This document shows, one piece after another, positions 9,664 to 57,120 of a DNA stretch of 57,656 nucleotides. Within the stretch, counting starts at the first letter, position 1. Each line of letters starts with the position of its first letter. Location of the stretch: NCBI GenBank assembly GCA_017476765.1, contig JAFUZE010000001.1, positions 1 through 57,656 on the forward strand, in the 5' to 3' direction. Made by a program: the position numbers and the translations under genes. Under the pieces are notes generated by a model. It did not search any database and was not told the origin of the DNA. It was given only the letters and a program-made list of their open reading frames with translations. The stretch comes from Lachnospiraceae bacterium (GTDB lineage: Bacteria > Bacillota > Clostridia > Lachnospirales > Lachnospiraceae).

Positions 9664-10075
9664 ATTGATAACCACGGAGCTGTCCGTGACAGTAACGGAT
9701 CAGGACATCGACGACATTATGGTCGCCGCATTGGAGGGCGGCATCAATTATTGGTGTGACGAGGCAGAAGTCATCGGCGATTATCTCGGAAAGTATGCCT
9801 CGGATCAGATAAGCCGAGGCGGTAAGCTAAGGCTTCATGTCATCGAGCCGTTTGACGAAAACGACTCAGAGTATTACGAGCTTGACCTTGATAAGTTTCT
9901 TGCCGGGCTAAAAGCGTACCTTGCATATCCTGATGCACCGTATGTAATCACGGCTGCGAAGCCTCACGGCTTTCGTGAGAAGCCAGCATATATCTTGGAC
10001 TGCTGCCTCGTGGATGCCGTTGTTGCAGATATGATTATCCAGTTCGGGCTGTTCGGAGAAATCATCTACGGATAG
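9653..10075 (+). CDS. Conserved Clostridia mobile-element protein (140 aa)
   Basis: The ATG at 9653 follows AAAGGAG, which decides the start over upstream in-frame codons. The segments TDQDIDDIMVAALEGGINYW, EAEVIGDYLGKYASDQISRG and YELDLDKFLAGLKAYL match a protein repeatedly seen on Firmicutes conjugative elements and phages, for which I know no function. It is the last gene of the P1 transcript before promoter P2. Confidence 0.75.
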   Translation: MADRLITTELSVTVTDQDIDDIMVAALEGGINYWCDEAEVIGDYLGKYASDQISRGGKLRLHVIEPFDENDSEYYELDLDKFLAGLKAYLAYPDAPYVITAAKPHGFREKPAYILDCCLVDAVVADMIIQFGLFGEIIYG

Positions 10076-10105
10076 AATTTTTCCGAAAAATTTTTCCGAA
10101 AAACC

Positions 10106-10134
10106 TTGAAAAATCCGACTAAAAGTGTTATAAT
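10106..10134 (+). promoter_or_regulatory. Promoter P2 of the second accessory operon
   Basis: The boxes TTGAAA (10106-10111) and TATAAT (10129-10134) have a 17-base spacer that contains CGACTAAAAGT, as in P1. The same GAAAAATTTTTC-like A/T block lies upstream and GAATGAAAGTAAA follows downstream. The near identity with P1 over about 60 bases implies a duplicated promoter cassette. Confidence 0.88.
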
Positions 10135-10200
10135 AAGAATGAAAGTAAAAATTGAAAGCCCGATTAGGGAGGACAAATCCGACGAAAGGAGGTACAGCCT

Positions 10201-14330: not shown

Positions 14331-14864
14331 ATGGAAATGAACATCGTCTATAAGAAAGTGGACGAGCTCACGGCATACGAGGACAATGCCCGCCGCAATG
14401 ATGCAGGTGTGGCAAAGGTAGCCGAGAGCATTAAGGAGTTCGGGTTCAAAAATCCCATCTCAATCAACAAGAATGGCGTGATTATATCCGGTCACACAAG
14501 GCTTAAAGCCGCCATCGAACTCGGAATGGAGGAAGTACCCTGCATCATTCAGGAAGACCTCTCCGAAGAGGATGAGCGCCTTATGCGCATCATCGACAAC
14601 AAGAGTCACGAATATTCGACATGGGATGTCGGCAAGCTGCATCGTGAGCTGGACGGCATCAATCTCGATGTGAAGACCACATTCTTCACTCCGAACCGTG
14701 ACCGCAAGTTTTTCAAGGACAATAAGTTTCTCATCTTCGGCAACAATGAGCTGCCGATCACGGATGACGAGTACAACCGGTTAAAGGCTCTGTATGACGA
14801 GTACATTGCCAAGAACAAGACCTATCTCGGCTTCGTGATGTTTCTGACAGGAGGTGAGGAATAA
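14331..14864 (+). CDS. ParB/Srx-fold nuclease-domain protein 1 (177 aa)
   Basis: The start is ATG 14331, behind AAAGGAGG, rather than ATG 14301, which has none. The N-terminal ~100 residues are a ParB-like domain: ELTAYEDNARRND, ISIN.NGVIISGHTRLKAA and VPCIIQEDLSEEDER. The C-terminal ~45 residues (FGNNELPITDDEYNRLKALY, then DEYIAKNKTYLGF) match the C-terminus of the next protein, so the two are paralogs. It opens the gene block ahead of the terminase. Phage ParB-domain proteins of this type are linked to DNA modification or packaging; the actual role is unknown. Confidence 0.82.
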   Translation: MEMNIVYKKVDELTAYEDNARRNDAGVAKVAESIKEFGFKNPISINKNGVIISGHTRLKAAIELGMEEVPCIIQEDLSEEDERLMRIIDNKSHEYSTWDVGKLHRELDGINLDVKTTFFTPNRDRKFFKDNKFLIFGNNELPITDDEYNRLKALYDEYIAKNKTYLGFVMFLTGGEE

Positions 14865-15721
14865 TGGAGATTAAACAGGTATCAACATCAAGACTGAAAG
14901 AATACGAGAATAATCCGCGAAACAACGACCTCGCTGTGGAAAAGGTGCGTTACAGCATCGAACGTTTCGGCTTCCGCTTCCCGGTCGTTATCGACATGAA
15001 CTATACAATCGTCTGCGGACACACAAGAGTCCGTGCTGCTCGTGAGTTAGGTTTGGCATCCGTGCCTTGCATCATCGCTGACGACCTGACTGAGGAGCAG
15101 ATCAACTTCTTCCGTCTTGTGGACAACAAGACGAGTGAGTACAGCGATTGGGACTTCGAGAAGTTGAAGAACGAACTGGCAGCAGTCGATCTTACCCTCG
15201 ATGCCAACCAGCTCCTGCTCGAACGCTTCGAGCTGTCTGCTGAGGTATTCGACATCGACGCTGAACAGGCAGAGATCAAGATACCGGCATTCAACTTTAT
15301 GGGTGTAAATGATGACAAGAAGCCCGCAAAGGAGAAGAAGCCACCCGTCAAGACCATCATCAGCGAGGGAAATGATGAAATTGAACCCGATGATGAGGAA
15401 ATTGAGGCAGAAGACAATTTCACGGCAGAGCCGACTGAAAGCGGGATGCCATTCACGGAAACTGATGACGAGACTCCTGTTGCCGCTCCGGCATCTCACG
15501 ACAGAGGGGAAAGCACCCCTGCTGCCGCACCGGAGGAAAAGAAACAGTCGAAAGGTTCTATGCCGTTCTGTCAGTTTAGATTTGGCGATGTGTCATTCTT
15601 CATCTCTCAGTTGGAGCTTGACCGTCTGAACGACAAGTATGCAGAGTATATCGACTCAGGAGAAATCCTGAAAGGCAGCTTTGCAAGCTATTTACTGAAA
15701 GGAGTGGAGTCCCGTGATTGA
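14864..15721 (+). CDS. ParB/Srx-fold nuclease-domain protein 2 (285 aa)
   Basis: The first ~110 residues are ParB-like (RLKEYENNPRNND, TIVCGHTRVRAARELG, VPCIIADDLTEEQ, NKTSEYSDWDFEKL). Then comes a ~90-residue acidic, Pro/Ala-rich low-complexity linker (about residues 150-230). The C-terminal domain FRFGDVSFFISQLELDRLND, then KYAEYIDSG, is shared with ParB protein 1. It overlaps protein 1 by one base and protein 3 by 8 bases, so all three are coupled. Confidence 0.82.
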   Translation: MEIKQVSTSRLKEYENNPRNNDLAVEKVRYSIERFGFRFPVVIDMNYTIVCGHTRVRAARELGLASVPCIIADDLTEEQINFFRLVDNKTSEYSDWDFEKLKNELAAVDLTLDANQLLLERFELSAEVFDIDAEQAEIKIPAFNFMGVNDDKKPAKEKKPPVKTIISEGNDEIEPDDEEIEAEDNFTAEPTESGMPFTETDDETPVAAPASHDRGESTPAAAPEEKKQSKGSMPFCQFRFGDVSFFISQLELDRLNDKYAEYIDSGEILKGSFASYLLKGVESRD

Positions 15722-17117
15722 TTTTGTAGAAAGAGTTCCCATTGATGATGTTACGGGATCTGAATACAACCCTCGCGTCATTACCGATGACGCGCTTGAA
15801 AAGCTGAAACACAGCATCAAGCGTTTCGGAATGGTAAAGCCGTTAATCGTCAATGATACGAACAATGTCATCGTTGCCGGGCATCAGAGAAAGAAAGCGG
15901 CAACAGCAATCGGACTGACACACCTTCCTTGTGTGAGGATCACGAGTCCGAGTTTGCAGGATGAAATCCTGTTCAACCTTATGCACAACTCCATCGAGAC
16001 GAGCGGAACGACCGTTCGCGTCGAGGAGTTTGAGGTGGGCGCGTATCATTATTGCCCCGTCGATAAGGTAAAAATCGAAAGTGAACCGCAGAATGTGCTG
16101 ATCTGCTCCGAAATCACGAAGTTGATGTCCCGCTACGGTGAATGGGGCAGCGTTGTGACTGACGGCGACGGCAATATCATTCTTAATGCGGAATACGCAT
16201 ACTGCGCCCGAAAGATGGGCTACGGCGTTCTCGTTTATGCAATACCGAACGAGGAAGTCAAGGAGTTCTTGGAGGCGATGGGCGTTGAGTACGGCAAGTA
16301 CAACTTCGACAATCTCGGAGTAAAGACATACCATCAGTTCCTCGCGCAGCCTAAGCGTCTTTCTACCGACGGACGACAGGCAAACTCGTCCATTCTGTAC
16401 GAGAAGTATCTGATACCTCGTATTCAGAAAGGCGATAGCTGCATCGACATCGGTGCGGGGCGCATGGCGTATGTGAAGCTCCTGAAATCAAAGGGCTACA
16501 ATATGCACGCCTATGAGCCGTCGCTGATGGTAAAGGGTGCAAACAAACTGGATATGAAAGGCATCATCGCAAATATCCTAAATGCGGAAAAAGAAGTCCG
16601 CGCACACGGATTGTTCGATTGGTGCGTTTTGGAGGCGGTAATCAATTCGGTTGTGGACGATGACTTTGAGAAAGCCGTGCTCACCACCTGCAATGCCGTG
16701 TTGAAGTCAACCGGCACGCTGATTACCTGCACAAGAAATATCGCTTATGTCGAGAAAGCATACGACAAGACGAAACTTTCAGCCGGAGCCGGTGACTGCT
16801 TGTGGTATCTCGACGATAAGAATTACACGCTCGGCGTGACAAACGGGATCGTGTTCAAGCAGAAGTTCCACACCCGCGAGAGCTATGTGGAGCTGCTCGA
16901 AAACTACTTCGAGGATGTGCTTGTTCTCTCCTGCACTGCCGGTTATGTGTACTGCGCTTGCTCCAAGCCGAAGCAGCTTCCGCAGGAGGTTTATGAGACC
17001 TATTTGGAAAAGGAACTGAATATCGAATACCCGAACGGATTTAAGCACAACAAGCATAAGGGCTTGATGGATGTCCTCATCGAAAAAGTCGCAGAACGAT
17101 ACAGCAGCGAACAGTAA
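15714..17117 (+). CDS. ParB-domain / SAM-methyltransferase fusion (467 aa)
   Basis: The start is GTG 15714 behind GGAGTGGAG. Residues 1-100 are a third ParB-like domain with NVIVAGHQRKKAATAIG (GHQRKKAA at 56-63). After a middle region, residues ~225-400 form a class I methyltransferase-like fold: motif I CIDIGAGR at 243-250, then MHAYEPS as the acidic end of beta 2, and a VLKSTGTLITCTRN strand. No DPPY or NPPY is seen, so it is not a standard adenine or cytosine-N4 methylase. DNA is the likely substrate given the ParB domain and terminase context, but this is inference. Confidence 0.75.
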   Translation: MIDFVERVPIDDVTGSEYNPRVITDDALEKLKHSIKRFGMVKPLIVNDTNNVIVAGHQRKKAATAIGLTHLPCVRITSPSLQDEILFNLMHNSIETSGTTVRVEEFEVGAYHYCPVDKVKIESEPQNVLICSEITKLMSRYGEWGSVVTDGDGNIILNAEYAYCARKMGYGVLVYAIPNEEVKEFLEAMGVEYGKYNFDNLGVKTYHQFLAQPKRLSTDGRQANSSILYEKYLIPRIQKGDSCIDIGAGRMAYVKLLKSKGYNMHAYEPSLMVKGANKLDMKGIIANILNAEKEVRAHGLFDWCVLEAVINSVVDDDFEKAVLTTCNAVLKSTGTLITCTRNIAYVEKAYDKTKLSAGAGDCLWYLDDKNYTLGVTNGIVFKQKFHTRESYVELLENYFEDVLVLSCTAGYVYCACSKPKQLPQEVYETYLEKELNIEYPNGFKHNKHKGLMDVLIEKVAERYSSEQ

Positions 17118-27347: not shown

Positions 27348-27740
27348 ATGTTACAGACTTACGATCCGAATAAGGTCAATGTCGCATTTAACAACCGCCA
27401 GCTCCGCATGTTCGGAGATAGCCTTTTCACTCTCGCCCGTGACGAGGCGAATGTGTCCCTGAAAAAGGGAGTAAAGGGTGACAGCACTTATGTTGTGAAT
27501 GCGAACAAGGCGGGCAAGCTCACCATCACTTTGCAGCAGGAGTCCCCTGATGTGGCGTGGTTGGAGCAGCAGGCTGAGAAGCTCACAAAGGGCAATCTCG
27601 CCATCACTGATGCCAACGACAGCGGAACGCTTTTCTTCGCACAGAATGTGATGATCGAGAAGCTGCCCGACCGTGCGAGGGCTAAGGATGCGGCTGATGT
27701 TTCCATCGTGTTCATCATTCCTGACATCCATATTTCCTGA
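27348..27740 (+). CDS. Tail tube protein (DUF3277-like)
   Basis: This 130-residue beta-rich protein directly follows the sheath. ITLQQESPDVAWLEQQAEKL and LFFAQNVMIEKLPDRARAKD match the DUF3277 tail-tube family, which forms the inner DNA conduit. Its stop codon TGA (27738-27740) is also the first three bases of the 279-bp duplicated element, an unusual junction. Confidence 0.88.
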   Translation: MLQTYDPNKVNVAFNNRQLRMFGDSLFTLARDEANVSLKKGVKGDSTYVVNANKAGKLTITLQQESPDVAWLEQQAEKLTKGNLAITDANDSGTLFFAQNVMIEKLPDRARAKDAADVSIVFIIPDIHIS

Positions 27741-28016
27741 AACATTCGGCGAAACAAGTCAAGTATTAGGCGCGAAAGTCGAACATTAGGCACGAAATTC
27801 AAGTCAATGTTTCAGCCGATTTGTTTCGTTGTTTCAGATAATGTTTCATAGATGTTTCAGGCATAGACCCCGATAAAATAAGGATTTATGCCCTATATGA
27901 AACATTGAAACATTTATTCCTATTAAATATAGAAATAGAGGAAATAGAGAACACCGTATAAATATATACTCTCTAAATCCTCGGATTTGCGCAATTATAC
28001 ACGCGCGCGTGCGCGA
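27738..28016. repeat. Duplicated 279-bp non-coding element, copy E1
   Basis: This matches 56830-57108 nearly end to end. It starts TGAAACATTCG on the stop of the tail tube gene. It carries two TTAGGC(A/G)CGAAA units, seven exact TGAAACA/TGTTTCA heptamers in both orientations, a paired TGAAACATTGAAACATTT, a conserved TATACTCTCTAAATCCTC and the palindrome ACGCGCGCGT. There is no ORF. It separates tail tube and tail chaperone genes, which are normally adjacent. It fills the 299-base gene-free gap here. Function unknown. Confidence 0.88.
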
Positions 28017-28039
28017 GAGAAAAATGGAGGGACAAATCA

Positions 28040-38881: not shown

Positions 38882-39763
38882 ATGAACCAGAAATTTATTG
38901 ATCTTACCTCGGTTGATGAGGTAGTGAAGAGCTCTGATTATCTCCACATCTTCTCGTCCGCTGGCGACAAGAAAATCCCCGTTGGAGATTTTGCGAGCAA
39001 GCTGACAAGCCTCGTCAGCCCCTCTGCGATTGCGTTCAATCAGCGCATCGACAGAAACTGGGACGGTCTCGGGGCGTTAGCCGCAAAGGCAACGGATGTA
39101 ACAGCAGACTTCGACAGCGGTGTGCTCTCTCAGAAGATTGCTGCAAACGACCTGAGCGATTATGACTGCGGTATGCAGATCAAAAAGACCATCACGATTG
39201 ACGGCACGAATTACACGGCGCACATCATCTTTGCTCACGCCAATGCTTTCTTCGGCTATGCGAGCTACGCTATGGTAAACACCCCGAATATCGCGTGCGT
39301 CGTTTATGTGGAGGGCTATACCTCGACATGGAACGCATCCAACACGGACGGCGGCTACACGACATCGAACCTCAGAACGTCCATTCAGAAAGTCGTGAAT
39401 GCAGTCAAGGCTGTCCTCGGCGCGAGTCATATGGTCTCTCATCAGGTTCTGCTCTCGAATGCGGTATCAGGTGGCAAGTCCTCAAACTGGGCTTGGGTTG
39501 CTGACTCTTTCGGCGAGGCAATGAGCTGTGCGCAGATGATGGGTGTCAATCCGAGCGGTTCTTACTTCGATATGGGCGAGGCTTATGAGAAGCTGGCTCT
39601 GTTCGATCTTGTGAGACCCAATCAGGTATTCGGCAATGTTAATGTGTGGAACCGCGACGTGCTGTCGGCTGCGTATGCTGCGAATTTGAACCTCGACGGC
39701 TATCTCCGCAACAGCAGCGTTGCCAATGCGAATTGCGTTGTCCCGCTTATCATGGTGAAGTAG
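38882..39763 (+). CDS. DGR target: variable tail-tip/receptor-binding protein
   Basis: The 293-residue protein starts with a fibre-adaptor-like segment (FIDLTSVDEVVKSSDYLHIF). The C-terminus (from ~residue 245, NQVFGNVNVWNRDVLS, then NANCVVPLIMVK) has the layout of C-type-lectin-like DGR variable domains. Codons 260-289 lie in the variable repeat; altered residues are S262, A264, Y265, L271, D272, Y274, R276, S278, A281 and L289 relative to template-encoded T, N or I. It lies in the fibre cluster, so it most likely contacts the host surface. The CLec fold is inferred. Confidence 0.88.
   Translation: MNQKFIDLTSVDEVVKSSDYLHIFSSAGDKKIPVGDFASKLTSLVSPSAIAFNQRIDRNWDGLGALAAKATDVTADFDSGVLSQKIAANDLSDYDCGMQIKKTITIDGTNYTAHIIFAHANAFFGYASYAMVNTPNIACVVYVEGYTSTWNASNTDGGYTTSNLRTSIQKVVNAVKAVLGASHMVSHQVLLSNAVSGGKSSNWAWVADSFGEAMSCAQMMGVNPSGSYFDMGEAYEKLALFDLVRPNQVFGNVNVWNRDVLSAAYAANLNLDGYLRNSSVANANCVVPLIMVK
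39658..39749 (+). repeat. DGR variable repeat (VR)
   Basis: These 92 bases align without gaps to the template repeat at 40334-40425. All 12 mismatches (39665, 39671, 39674, 39692, 39693, 39695, 39701, 39707, 39708, 39714, 39722, 39746) fall on template adenines; all 64 non-A positions are identical. The last mismatch-free block (39723-39745) and the 39746 difference fit an IMH-like 3' anchor. Confidence 0.97.
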
Positions 39764-39777
39764 GCGAAGCCTACTTC
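39757..39777 (+). other. DGR hairpin/cruciform downstream of VR
   Basis: GAAGTAGGC (39757-39765) and GCCTACTTC (39769-39777) form a perfect 9-bp stem with a GAA loop, 8 bases after the VR and across the stop codon. DGRs carry such a hairpin here, where it promotes retrohoming. A second stem, CGGCCCC-GGCA-GGGGCCG, follows at 39797-39814. Confidence 0.85.
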
Positions 39778-39829
39778 TACCAGTACCCTACGACCCCGGC
39801 CCCGGCAGGGGCCGCAATGAGGCAAGAAT

Positions 39830-40312
39830 ATGAGTTGGAAGAAAAGCGAGCGTCCTCAATCGCCTATGGAGTTCACGGCAGCAGCCGAACAGATAATCCG
39901 AAAGGTTTACGAGGACACAAAATACAATTTCGGTATCAAAGACGAGCCGGACACTCTCGATAGTGAGGGAAAGCCAATACCCGGACGAAAGGATTATACC
40001 GATAACAAGGATTTCATCGACGCAACAAAGACACAGATGCTAACCTACGCAGAGATGATTGACTACTATGTGCAGTCCGCTGACAGCCACTATCCCCATA
40101 CGCTCGGTATCTTGGAGCAGCGGAGGATTATGCAGGATAACGCCATTGCCGCTTGCAGAAGCCTTAAAAGGCGGTATCAGATCAACCTCGACCTGCTCCA
40201 TGTACCAAAGGCGAAATATCACGACACCGTGAGCCTAATTGAGCACGAGATTGTTGTGATACAAGGATGGCGAAAGTCGGACAACAAGTGGGAAAAGAAA
40301 CTGAAAAATTAA
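39830..40312 (+). CDS. avd: DGR accessory variability determinant (Avd-like)
   Basis: This 160-residue all-helical protein is encoded between target and template repeat, the usual avd slot. It has basic, amphipathic helices (EFTAAAEQIIRKVYEDTKYN, RRIMQDNAIAACRSLKRRYQ, then IEHEIVVIQGWRKSDNKW). In Bordetella phage DGR, Avd is a four-helix-bundle pentamer that binds reverse transcriptase and RNA. It is a bit longer than the usual ~125 residues. Ribosome-binding site is weak, so translation may be coupled. Confidence 0.85.
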   Translation: MSWKKSERPQSPMEFTAAAEQIIRKVYEDTKYNFGIKDEPDTLDSEGKPIPGRKDYTDNKDFIDATKTQMLTYAEMIDYYVQSADSHYPHTLGILEQRRIMQDNAIAACRSLKRRYQINLDLLHVPKAKYHDTVSLIEHEIVVIQGWRKSDNKWEKKLKN

Positions 40313-40333
40313 ATAACCGGGTTGTGCTTTGAT

Positions 40334-40425
40334 CGTGCTGACGGCTACGAATGCTGCGAATTTGAACAACAACGGCAATCTCAACAACAACAGCGTTACC
40401 AATGCGAATTGCGTTGTCCCGATTA
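40334..40425 (+). repeat. DGR template repeat (TR)
   Basis: This 92-base master copy of the variable repeat lies between avd and the reverse transcriptase gene. It holds 28 adenines; 12 of them are changed in the VR. Read in the target frame it is rich in AAC/AAT Asn codons at the diversified sites, which allows first- and second-base changes to many residues but no stop codons at AAC/AAT. Confidence 0.97.
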
Positions 40426-40428
40426 CCC

Positions 40429-40468
40429 CTGCCGAGTCCCAAGCCCACAAGGGCCGTATATTCGGCAG
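40429..40468 (+). other. Structured spacer after TR
   Basis: CTGCCGA (40429-40435) pairs with TCGGCAG (40462-40468), enclosing a small GCCC-ACAA-GGGC hairpin (40443-40454). In the Bordetella phage DGR the RNA downstream of TR (Sp region) folds and primes cDNA synthesis with Avd and reverse transcriptase; this stem is the natural counterpart. The function here is inferred from position. Confidence 0.6.
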
Positions 40469-40565
40469 ATGATAAGGAAAGCACGACCCTCGCAGGAAAT
40501 GCGTAAATTGCATCTTTATGATGCCGTCTGATAAGTCAGATACGGCTACAACATGGAGATATTTT

Positions 40566-41720
40566 ATGACAGAACTTGAAAAGATTACGGAACTCGACCG
40601 GCTCTGTGAAGCGTTCAAGGAAGTCCGTAGTGTTTCATCGTGGAAAGCGTCAACGCACAGATATGAGGCAGATGTGATTATGAACAGTCTCAAATTGCAA
40701 GAAGAGGTGAGAAATGGAACATACAAGCAGAGCGCCATGTTGAACTTCACACTTAATGAGCGGGGCAAGCTCCGAGACATCCACGCCCCAGCCGTCCGTG
40801 ACCGGGTGGTGCAGAAGACCGTAAACCAAGACATTCTTCTGCCGTGCTTGCGGAAGTACCTGATCTACGACAATGCAGCGTCATTGGAGATGAGAGGTAC
40901 AGCGTTTATGAGAAAGCGGCACTTAATACACCTCAGAAACTTCATCCGGGAGAACGGAACCGACGGCTATATTTTGCAGGTTGACATCAGACACTACTTT
41001 GACAGCGTCGACCACGAGATATGCTGGAAGATGATCGAGCCTCGCATCCCCGAAAGCACGAGACCGCTGGTGCATTACATCATCGACAATGCTTCGGAGA
41101 GCGATAAGGGATTAAATCTCGGCTCGGAAGTGCCGCAGACGCTGGCGATCTACTACCTGCATCCCGTTGACGATTACTGCAAGATAGTCGAGGGCATAAA
41201 AGGCTACGGACGATATATGGATGACATTTACATCTTCGGCAAGAGCAAGGAAGAACTGTGGCGCATCCTCGATGGTATCAAGAAGCAGCTCGTTCCGCTG
41301 AAACTAGAAGTGAATGAGAAGAAAACTCAAATCGTGAAGCTCTCCCACGGCTACACATTCATGCAGCTCAAATATCGCATCTTGGAGAACGGCAAAGTGC
41401 TCGTCACTCCTGCCCCGGCTAAGATCACAAGAGAGCGCAGGAAACTGAAAGCCTATAAGAGACTTTACGACGAGGGACGGCTTGATGAGGTGGACATACT
41501 GAACGCTTACAAATCGTGGCGGCAGAGCATTCTTAGGGACTGCACCTGCACAAGGAGCGTCGAGAACCTTGACCGTCTGTATGAGGAGCTGTTCGGCACG
41601 AGTCCGCACAGAAAGCCGAAGAACGAAGAAACAAGGTATTCTATCCCGGATGCACCGGGAGAAAAGCATTTCATCATTTCCGACACGCCCTTTACGAGGC
41701 GCATCGGAGCAAACATCTAA
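40566..41720 (+). CDS. DGR reverse transcriptase
   Basis: This 384-residue reverse transcriptase (counted from ATG 40566, which has GGAGA 8 bases upstream; ATG 40518 would add 16 residues) shows the RT motifs: RDIHAPAVRDRVVQ (motif 2), QVDIRHYFDSVDH with D140 (motif 3/A), GSEVPQTLAIYYL (motif 4/B) and GRYMDDIYIF with D219 and D220 (motif 5/C). No endonuclease or intron maturase domain is present. Motif 4 has PQ where most DGR enzymes have SQ. It copies TR RNA with errors at adenines. Confidence 0.95.
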   Translation: MTELEKITELDRLCEAFKEVRSVSSWKASTHRYEADVIMNSLKLQEEVRNGTYKQSAMLNFTLNERGKLRDIHAPAVRDRVVQKTVNQDILLPCLRKYLIYDNAASLEMRGTAFMRKRHLIHLRNFIRENGTDGYILQVDIRHYFDSVDHEICWKMIEPRIPESTRPLVHYIIDNASESDKGLNLGSEVPQTLAIYYLHPVDDYCKIVEGIKGYGRYMDDIYIFGKSKEELWRILDGIKKQLVPLKLEVNEKKTQIVKLSHGYTFMQLKYRILENGKVLVTPAPAKITRERRKLKAYKRLYDEGRLDEVDILNAYKSWRQSILRDCTCTRSVENLDRLYEELFGTSPHRKPKNEETRYSIPDAPGEKHFIISDTPFTRRIGANI

Positions 41721-56460: not shown

Positions 56461-56832
56461 ATGGATTGGCTTAGTACCTGCCGATACTGCAAGCATTGGG
56501 ACAACGGCACTTGCACAAACAGCCGCTTCACCGGCGATGACGGAGCATACGAGGCGGTTTATGACATAGCAGAAAGCGGGAAGCTCGAAGAAACCGCAAA
56601 GGAGTCCGCAGGGAGCATTAAAGCGGACGAGCTGATCGGGATGCTCGCAGAGTGGAATGTAAGCAAAAAGCGGCGGGACGAGTTTGCCGGAGCACTCAGG
56701 GAATTTATGGAGAACGCAGCCGCAGAGATCGGCGAGGACATCCACAAGATTTATATGGATGCGGTCGAGAGTTCTACATTTTCCGTCGAAATCAGTGACC
56801 CGTATGACTTCAAATGCTCTGATTTCGAGTGA
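56461..56832 (+). CDS. Cys-containing hypothetical protein (123 aa)
   Basis: ATG 56461 lies 11 bases behind AAGGAGG. The N-terminus WLSTCRYCKHWDNGTCTNSR has a CxxC...C cluster like the protein at 55801. The rest is helical (KADELIGMLAEWNVSKKRRD, then EFAGALREFMENAAAEIGED). Its TGA (56830-56832) forms the first bases of the duplicated element E2, exactly as the tail tube stop does for E1. Confidence 0.72.
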   Translation: MDWLSTCRYCKHWDNGTCTNSRFTGDDGAYEAVYDIAESGKLEETAKESAGSIKADELIGMLAEWNVSKKRRDEFAGALREFMENAAAEIGEDIHKIYMDAVESSTFSVEISDPYDFKCSDFE

Positions 56833-57108
56833 AACATTCGATGAAACAAGTCAAGTATTAGGCACGAAAAGCCAATGTTAGGCACGAAATTCAAGTGAAT
56901 GTTTCAGGGCAGTTTGTATCAATGTTTCGGGAATGTTTCAGAGATGTTTCAGCCGCAAAACCGCTCCGTTATTGGGTTTATTACTTATATGAAACATTGA
57001 AACATTTATTCTTATAAATAATGAAAATAGAGAGATTAGAGAAAATAGAGAAATATTATACTCTCTAAATCCTCAGTTTTCGCAAATGTATACGCGCGCG
57101 TGCGCGCG
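56830..57108. repeat. Duplicated 279-bp non-coding element, copy E2
   Basis: This copy has the same order of blocks as E1 (27738-28016): TGAAACATTCG at the start, two TTAGGCACGAAA units, seven TGAAACA/TGTTTCA heptamers, TATGAAACATTGAAACATTT, TATACTCTCTAAATCCTC and ACGCGCGCGTGCGCG at the end. No ORF. It fills the 288-base gene-free gap before the VRR-NUC gene and lies 29,092 bp from E1 (28,423 bp the other way round). Confidence 0.88.
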
Positions 57109-57120
57109 AGGAGGATTTCG

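Follow-up and report, generated by a model that had tools for sequence, protein, structure and literature searches.

The window, a stretch of 57,656 nt, is the whole of C186, one of the 306 contigs in the genome assembly of a bacterium. It contains a segment in which the 3' end of a late tail gene is repeated, with substitutions, between two downstream genes, the second of which encodes a reverse transcriptase. This locus raises the question of whether the segment is a complete diversity-generating retroelement (DGR), which protein domain it would diversify, and whether it is still active.

Gene organization of the locus

The first and last 141 bases of the contig match exactly, and therefore the contig is a closed circle of ~57,515 bp. 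Among its gene products are the terminase, the portal and capsid proteins, the sheath, tape measure protein, baseplate J and tail fibres, together with an endolysin, a holin, a DNA polymerase and a helicase. An integrase (PHROG_95, although DNA invertases match as well) and a repressor are encoded on the minus strand. Judged from these sequence features, the window is the circular genome, about 57.5 kb, of a temperate contractile-tailed phage. The segment in question has the tail-fibre genes on one side and the lysis genes on the other. Its features are summarized in Table 1. As claimed in the initial annotation, a complete set of DGR parts is arranged in the canonical order, which is the target gene with VR, hairpins, avd, TR and the reverse transcriptase gene, and the target gene, said to lie at the end of the fibre cluster, indeed closes the baseplate and tail-fibre cluster.

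Table 1. Features of the DGR and of the region downstream of it (window coordinates; L003, viral contig IMGVR_UViG_3300037400_003770)
Feature	Position	Strand	Remarks
DGR target gene, 293 aa	38882..39763	+	ORF; family of DGR targets; C-terminal aa 76-293 modelled as C-type-lectin-like
Variable repeat (VR)	39658..39745	+	repeats TR as far as the IMH edge; differs from it at 11 TR adenines and nowhere else
IMH edge motif GCTT	39745..39748	+	C where TR has A (GATT); marks VR versus TR
Hairpin 1	39757..39777	+	9-bp stem GAAGTAGGC/GCCTACTTC, GAA loop, perfect; spans target stop codon 39761-39763
Hairpin 2	39797..39814	+	7-bp stem CGGCCCC/GGGGCCG, loop GGCA, perfect
avd, accessory variability determinant, 160 aa	39830..40312	+	PHROG_3206; position shared with DGR relatives
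Template repeat (TR)	40334..40421	+	26 As
IMH* edge motif GATT, TR 3' end	40421..40424	+	from comparison with related DGRs
Spacer (Sp), TR to reverse transcriptase	40425..40565	+	expected cDNA priming site
DGR reverse transcriptase	40566..41720	+	catalytic YMDD, motif LGSEVPQ; frame open from 40518
Small ORF, 79 aa	41729..41968	+	67% identical to L003:6940-7173; accompanies target in L003
Small ORF, 51 aa	41973..42128	+	46% identical to L003:7182-7319; also aligned at DNA level; accompanies target in L003

Two repeat families are found elsewhere in the phage genome. Intergenic repeats of ~282 bp (27738-28019 and 56830-57110), which are roughly 80% alike, are located almost opposite to each other on the circle. 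The sequence TGAAACATT occurs 10 times in the genome, as compared with 0.5 expected, and all of these copies are within the two repeats, five in each, with shared orientations and spacing. The ~282-bp repeats are perhaps partition, origin or regulatory sites. With regard to partition, the phage has two ParB-like genes, which overlap (14864-15718 and 15714-17114) and both start with a ParB-like domain, the second being mostly of unknown function. In an 86-bp repeat (1822-1907 and 10071-10156, 81% alike), TTGACA ... TAAAAT is arranged as in a promoter and accompanied by an AT-rich inverted stretch; this repeat is perhaps a duplicated early promoter.

Distribution of substitutions between TR and VR

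VR (39658-39749) and TR (40334-40425) align over 92 nt without gaps and with 12 mismatches, which reproduces the coordinates and counts of the initial annotation. All 12 mismatches are at TR adenines (n = 28) and none at the 64 other positions (hypergeometric P = 8e-8). The twelfth mismatch, which is C at 39746 in VR and A at 40422 in TR, is located at the extreme edge and is followed by non-A mismatches. Eleven of the 12 proposed adenine mutations stand, but the one at 39746/40422 probably does not, because it is part of a GATT/GCTT marker that is fixed in relatives. The 92-nt alignment overruns the natural edge of the repeat. When the span is corrected to 88 nt, 11 of the 26 adenines and none of the 62 other bases are substituted (P = 2.4e-7).

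Two copies of a tail-gene end that diverged by ordinary duplication and drift would also be similar to each other, and nothing beyond this similarity speaks for such an origin. The confinement of all 11 substitutions to TR adenines argues against it, as does the location of the second copy between avd and the gene for a DGR reverse transcriptase, where TR is located in relatives. Ordinary duplication and drift is refuted by the mismatch distribution and has practically no chance of being correct. A third copy of the repeat is found neither in the window nor in the remaining host assembly.

The adenines of TR are confined to the first two codon positions. Whichever base replaces an adenine of TR, a stop codon does not arise. 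The copied part of TR is computed to permit about 2.2e15 protein variants.

The edge of the repeats in related DGRs

The 3' edge was compared among 78 distinct TRs from the genomes of the family, Roseburia phage Shimadzu and 80 viral contigs that were found with an alignment of reverse transcriptases. Scanning of these TRs identified 53 pairs in which the edge reads GATT in TR and GNTT in VR, and N is C in all 53, although these pairs are related by descent and not independent, so that a formal P value should not be read at face value. The other 25 TRs have different edges, such as GCTC or GATC in TR as compared with GCTT in VR, or an extra base in VR. In contrast to this uniformity, internal adenines of the related DGRs are changed to C in only 235 of 1,114 cases (21%), the rarest outcome. 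The edge C is at codon positions 1, 2 and 3 in 11, 23 and 19 cases, respectively. Because it is found at all three codon positions, protein selection is unlikely to be its main cause. These results suggest that the twelfth mismatch is probably a fixed IMH/IMH* difference rather than a product of mutagenesis.

In BPP-1, the IMH/IMH* difference sets the direction of transfer (PMC3240598; PMC4891356). GATT in TR and GCTT in VR may likewise form a lineage-wide polarity switch, in which a single conserved base, located at the 3' edge and not itself copied, would distinguish template from recipient and replace the five-base IMH/IMH* difference of BPP-1. This proposal is tentative, and we rate its chance at somewhat below even. 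The comparison thus singles out one base as a candidate signal for the direction of homing. It also provides a rule for reading DGR activity from TR/VR pairs: the conserved edge marker is to be left out of the mutagenesis count.

Hairpins and spacer

The DNA of the hairpin region (39746-39826) folds with a z score of -5.2, and hairpins 1 and 2 are located at +7 and +47 after VR. Published hairpins of phage DGRs have a stem of 7-10 bp and a 4-nt GRNA loop, and are located 4-34 nt after VR (PMC3240598). The GGCA loop of hairpin 2 fits GRNA, yet this hairpin is 47 nt beyond VR, whereas hairpin 1 spans the stop codon of the target gene, as the published hairpin of mtd does. Among the related DGRs, a hairpin is found within 90 nt after VR in 62 of 78 cases, as compared with 5 of 78 after TR and 2-4 of 78 in shuffled sequences. 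The loop usual in these DGRs is of the CTTGT type, unlike the GAA and GGCA loops of this phage.

The RNA of Sp is strongly structured in this phage (z = -4.2 for 40422-40566). Such a structure was rejected as a general feature of DGRs, since the median z score of relatives is -0.84, similar to that of a control stretch. A search of Rfam gave no match.

Reverse transcriptase and Avd

The reverse transcriptase probably starts at 40566, not at 40518, because homology to relatives begins around residues 17-21 of the longer frame. It matches PHROG_1423 (E = 1e-68) and RVT_1 (E = 4e-17). When the profile of its alignment is compared with solved structures, the best match is 8ub7 (E = 6e-38), which we take to be the BPP-1 enzyme, the database entry reading just 'reverse transcriptase'. 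Motif 4 is GSEVPQ instead of the commoner GSQxSQ. Gln207, the last residue of LGSEVPQ, is invariant in 16 aligned DGR reverse transcriptases, most of which have SQ. By these matches the enzyme is a reverse transcriptase of the DGR type. Avd alone matches PHROG_3206 only weakly (E = 0.03), but nine of the ten members of its alignment match this family, with E values of up to 1.5e-19. Thus, the assignment of Avd to the Avd family is weak for the single sequence and clear through its relatives. Its sequence profile gave no credible match in PDB.

With these components, the avd-TR-RT transcript would provide the template RNA, and the reverse transcriptase and Avd would convert TR to cDNA with random bases opposite adenines. 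The C-type-lectin-like domain of a late tail protein would thereby be produced in as many as about 2e15 protein variants. Priming of the cDNA in Sp, homing, formation of an Avd-RT complex and receptor binding are presumed from established DGR biology.

Predicted fold and role of the target protein

The target protein alone matches nothing in Pfam and PHROGs by sequence search, and its sequence profile gave no credible match in PDB. However, of the 13 proteins in its alignment, six have a match to DUF6273 in Pfam. A first model built from 13 sequences, in which VR is poorly modelled (pLDDT 60) and the best structure match is TvpA (Z = 3.1), was superseded by a model of residues 76-293 built from 44 sequences (pLDDT 92.7, pTM 0.91). 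The variable residues are 262-284.

A plain Foldseek search of PDB with the 44-sequence model gave nothing below E = 0.001. Nevertheless, most of the best 50 solved matches to this model are C-type lectins (Z = 5.9-6.9), which are superposed over ~95-100 residues at ~3 Å. Higher scores among these 50 are those of Lcl (Z = 7.8), BACOVA_04982 (Z = 8.3) and a chain of an IgA peptidase (Z = 11.0). Because Z scores of this range can by themselves reflect a common arrangement, the C-type-lectin reading is persuasive owing to the uniformity of the match list, not to Z alone. Similar viral models are those of DUF6273 and receptor-binding proteins. The C-type lectin fold that the initial annotation proposed for the C-terminus is thus predicted with high confidence, as a C-type-lectin-like domain of the DUF6273 kind.

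The diversified domain is most likely the receptor-contacting tip of the tail protein. Receptor switching, given as the likely purpose in the initial annotation, is an inference from the gene position, the fold and the precedent of BPP-1. C-type-lectin-like domains have many ligands, and the evidence for the role of this one consists of fold and gene position, so that the domain might instead serve a role other than attachment to the host, for instance by binding mucus glycans or another cell's surface. This role is unlikely, considering that the gene comes last in the baseplate and tail-fibre cluster, that the fold matches viral receptor-binding proteins, and that BPP-1 provides a precedent.

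Active and lost DGRs in relatives

Other copies or variants of the VR and TR of this phage are found neither in the viral contigs, nor in the genome contigs, nor in 392 genomes of the order. Two viral contigs, L111 and L112, are identical over the 9,210 bp compared except for 17 sites, all of which are in VR at TR adenines. The DGR is live in this related element, of which the reverse transcriptase is 37% identical to that of the window, and the variation is natural evidence of live retrohoming. The initial annotation took the mismatches as a direct sign that adenines are mutated in this lineage. They do constitute a record of past mutagenesis in one VR, but ongoing activity is seen only in the relative. 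In two other DGRs, L102 and L105, a second VR is located ~4-5 kb from the first, and a single TR feeds both.

A DGR has been lost in a close relative of this module. The segment L003:5881-7319 encodes a target 71% identical to that of the window, followed by the last ~45 codons of a reverse transcriptase and two small ORFs as in the window, while avd, TR and the core of the reverse transcriptase gene are deleted. No other reverse transcriptase is encoded by this 17.6-kb contig. Its DNA is similar to that of the window in the DGR target module only, and the other DNA compared is dissimilar. By this arrangement the segment is a remnant of the cassette. L003 represents a phage that has retained a closely related target after loss of the machinery. 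Targets without a DGR core have already been described in Treponema denticola (PMC4891356).

This loss nearby, together with the single VR sequence known for this phage, would fit a DGR that was active in the past and has since become idle, with its parts intact and VR frozen. Such an idle state is quite unlikely, because the reverse transcriptase frame is open and retains the catalytic YMDD, the frame of Avd is open, TR, IMH and the hairpins are intact, and every VR mismatch is at an adenine, while the 62 other sites show no drift. With a probability of about 0.95, the locus is a complete BPP-1-type phage DGR that diversifies the C-type-lectin-like domain of a late tail protein. As far as sequence can tell, its parts, the adenine-only differences and the fixed edge marker are all in place. 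The system is already known and of standard type; this locus adds a clean and complete phage example found in a bacterial assembly.

Comparison with known systems

IMGVR_UViG_3300037400_003770 (L003) is a DGR-less relative that shares the target and has kept both small downstream ORFs. IMGVR_UViG_3300001598_000022 (L004/L079) has the part order of the window and 18 mismatches, all at adenines. Its reverse transcriptase, target and Avd are 50%, 34% and 27% identical to those of the window, respectively, but it has little other DNA similarity to the window. In Roseburia phage Shimadzu (LR596903), a tail fibre gene, avd, TR and the reverse transcriptase gene follow baseplate J, as in the window. 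The reverse transcriptase is 37% identical to that of the window and the GATT/GCTT edge is common to both, but the target is only distantly related (profile E = 3e-9) and the hairpin has a CTCGT loop, unlike the hairpins of the window.

BPP-1 (mtd-avd-TR-brt) differs from the phage in the window in that the latter is contractile-tailed. TR is 88-92 nt in the window and 134 nt in BPP-1, and the IMH edge first differs by C in TR and A in VR in BPP-1, as compared with GATT in TR and GCTT in VR in the window. The order of parts, the adenine-only substitutions from TR to VR and the presence of IMH and IMH* are common to both systems. Both have a hairpin that spans the TAG stop codon of the target gene, and 8ub7 is the best solved match of the reverse transcriptase profile of the window. 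The target of BPP-1 has a C-type lectin fold, as does, by prediction, the target of the DGR in the window.
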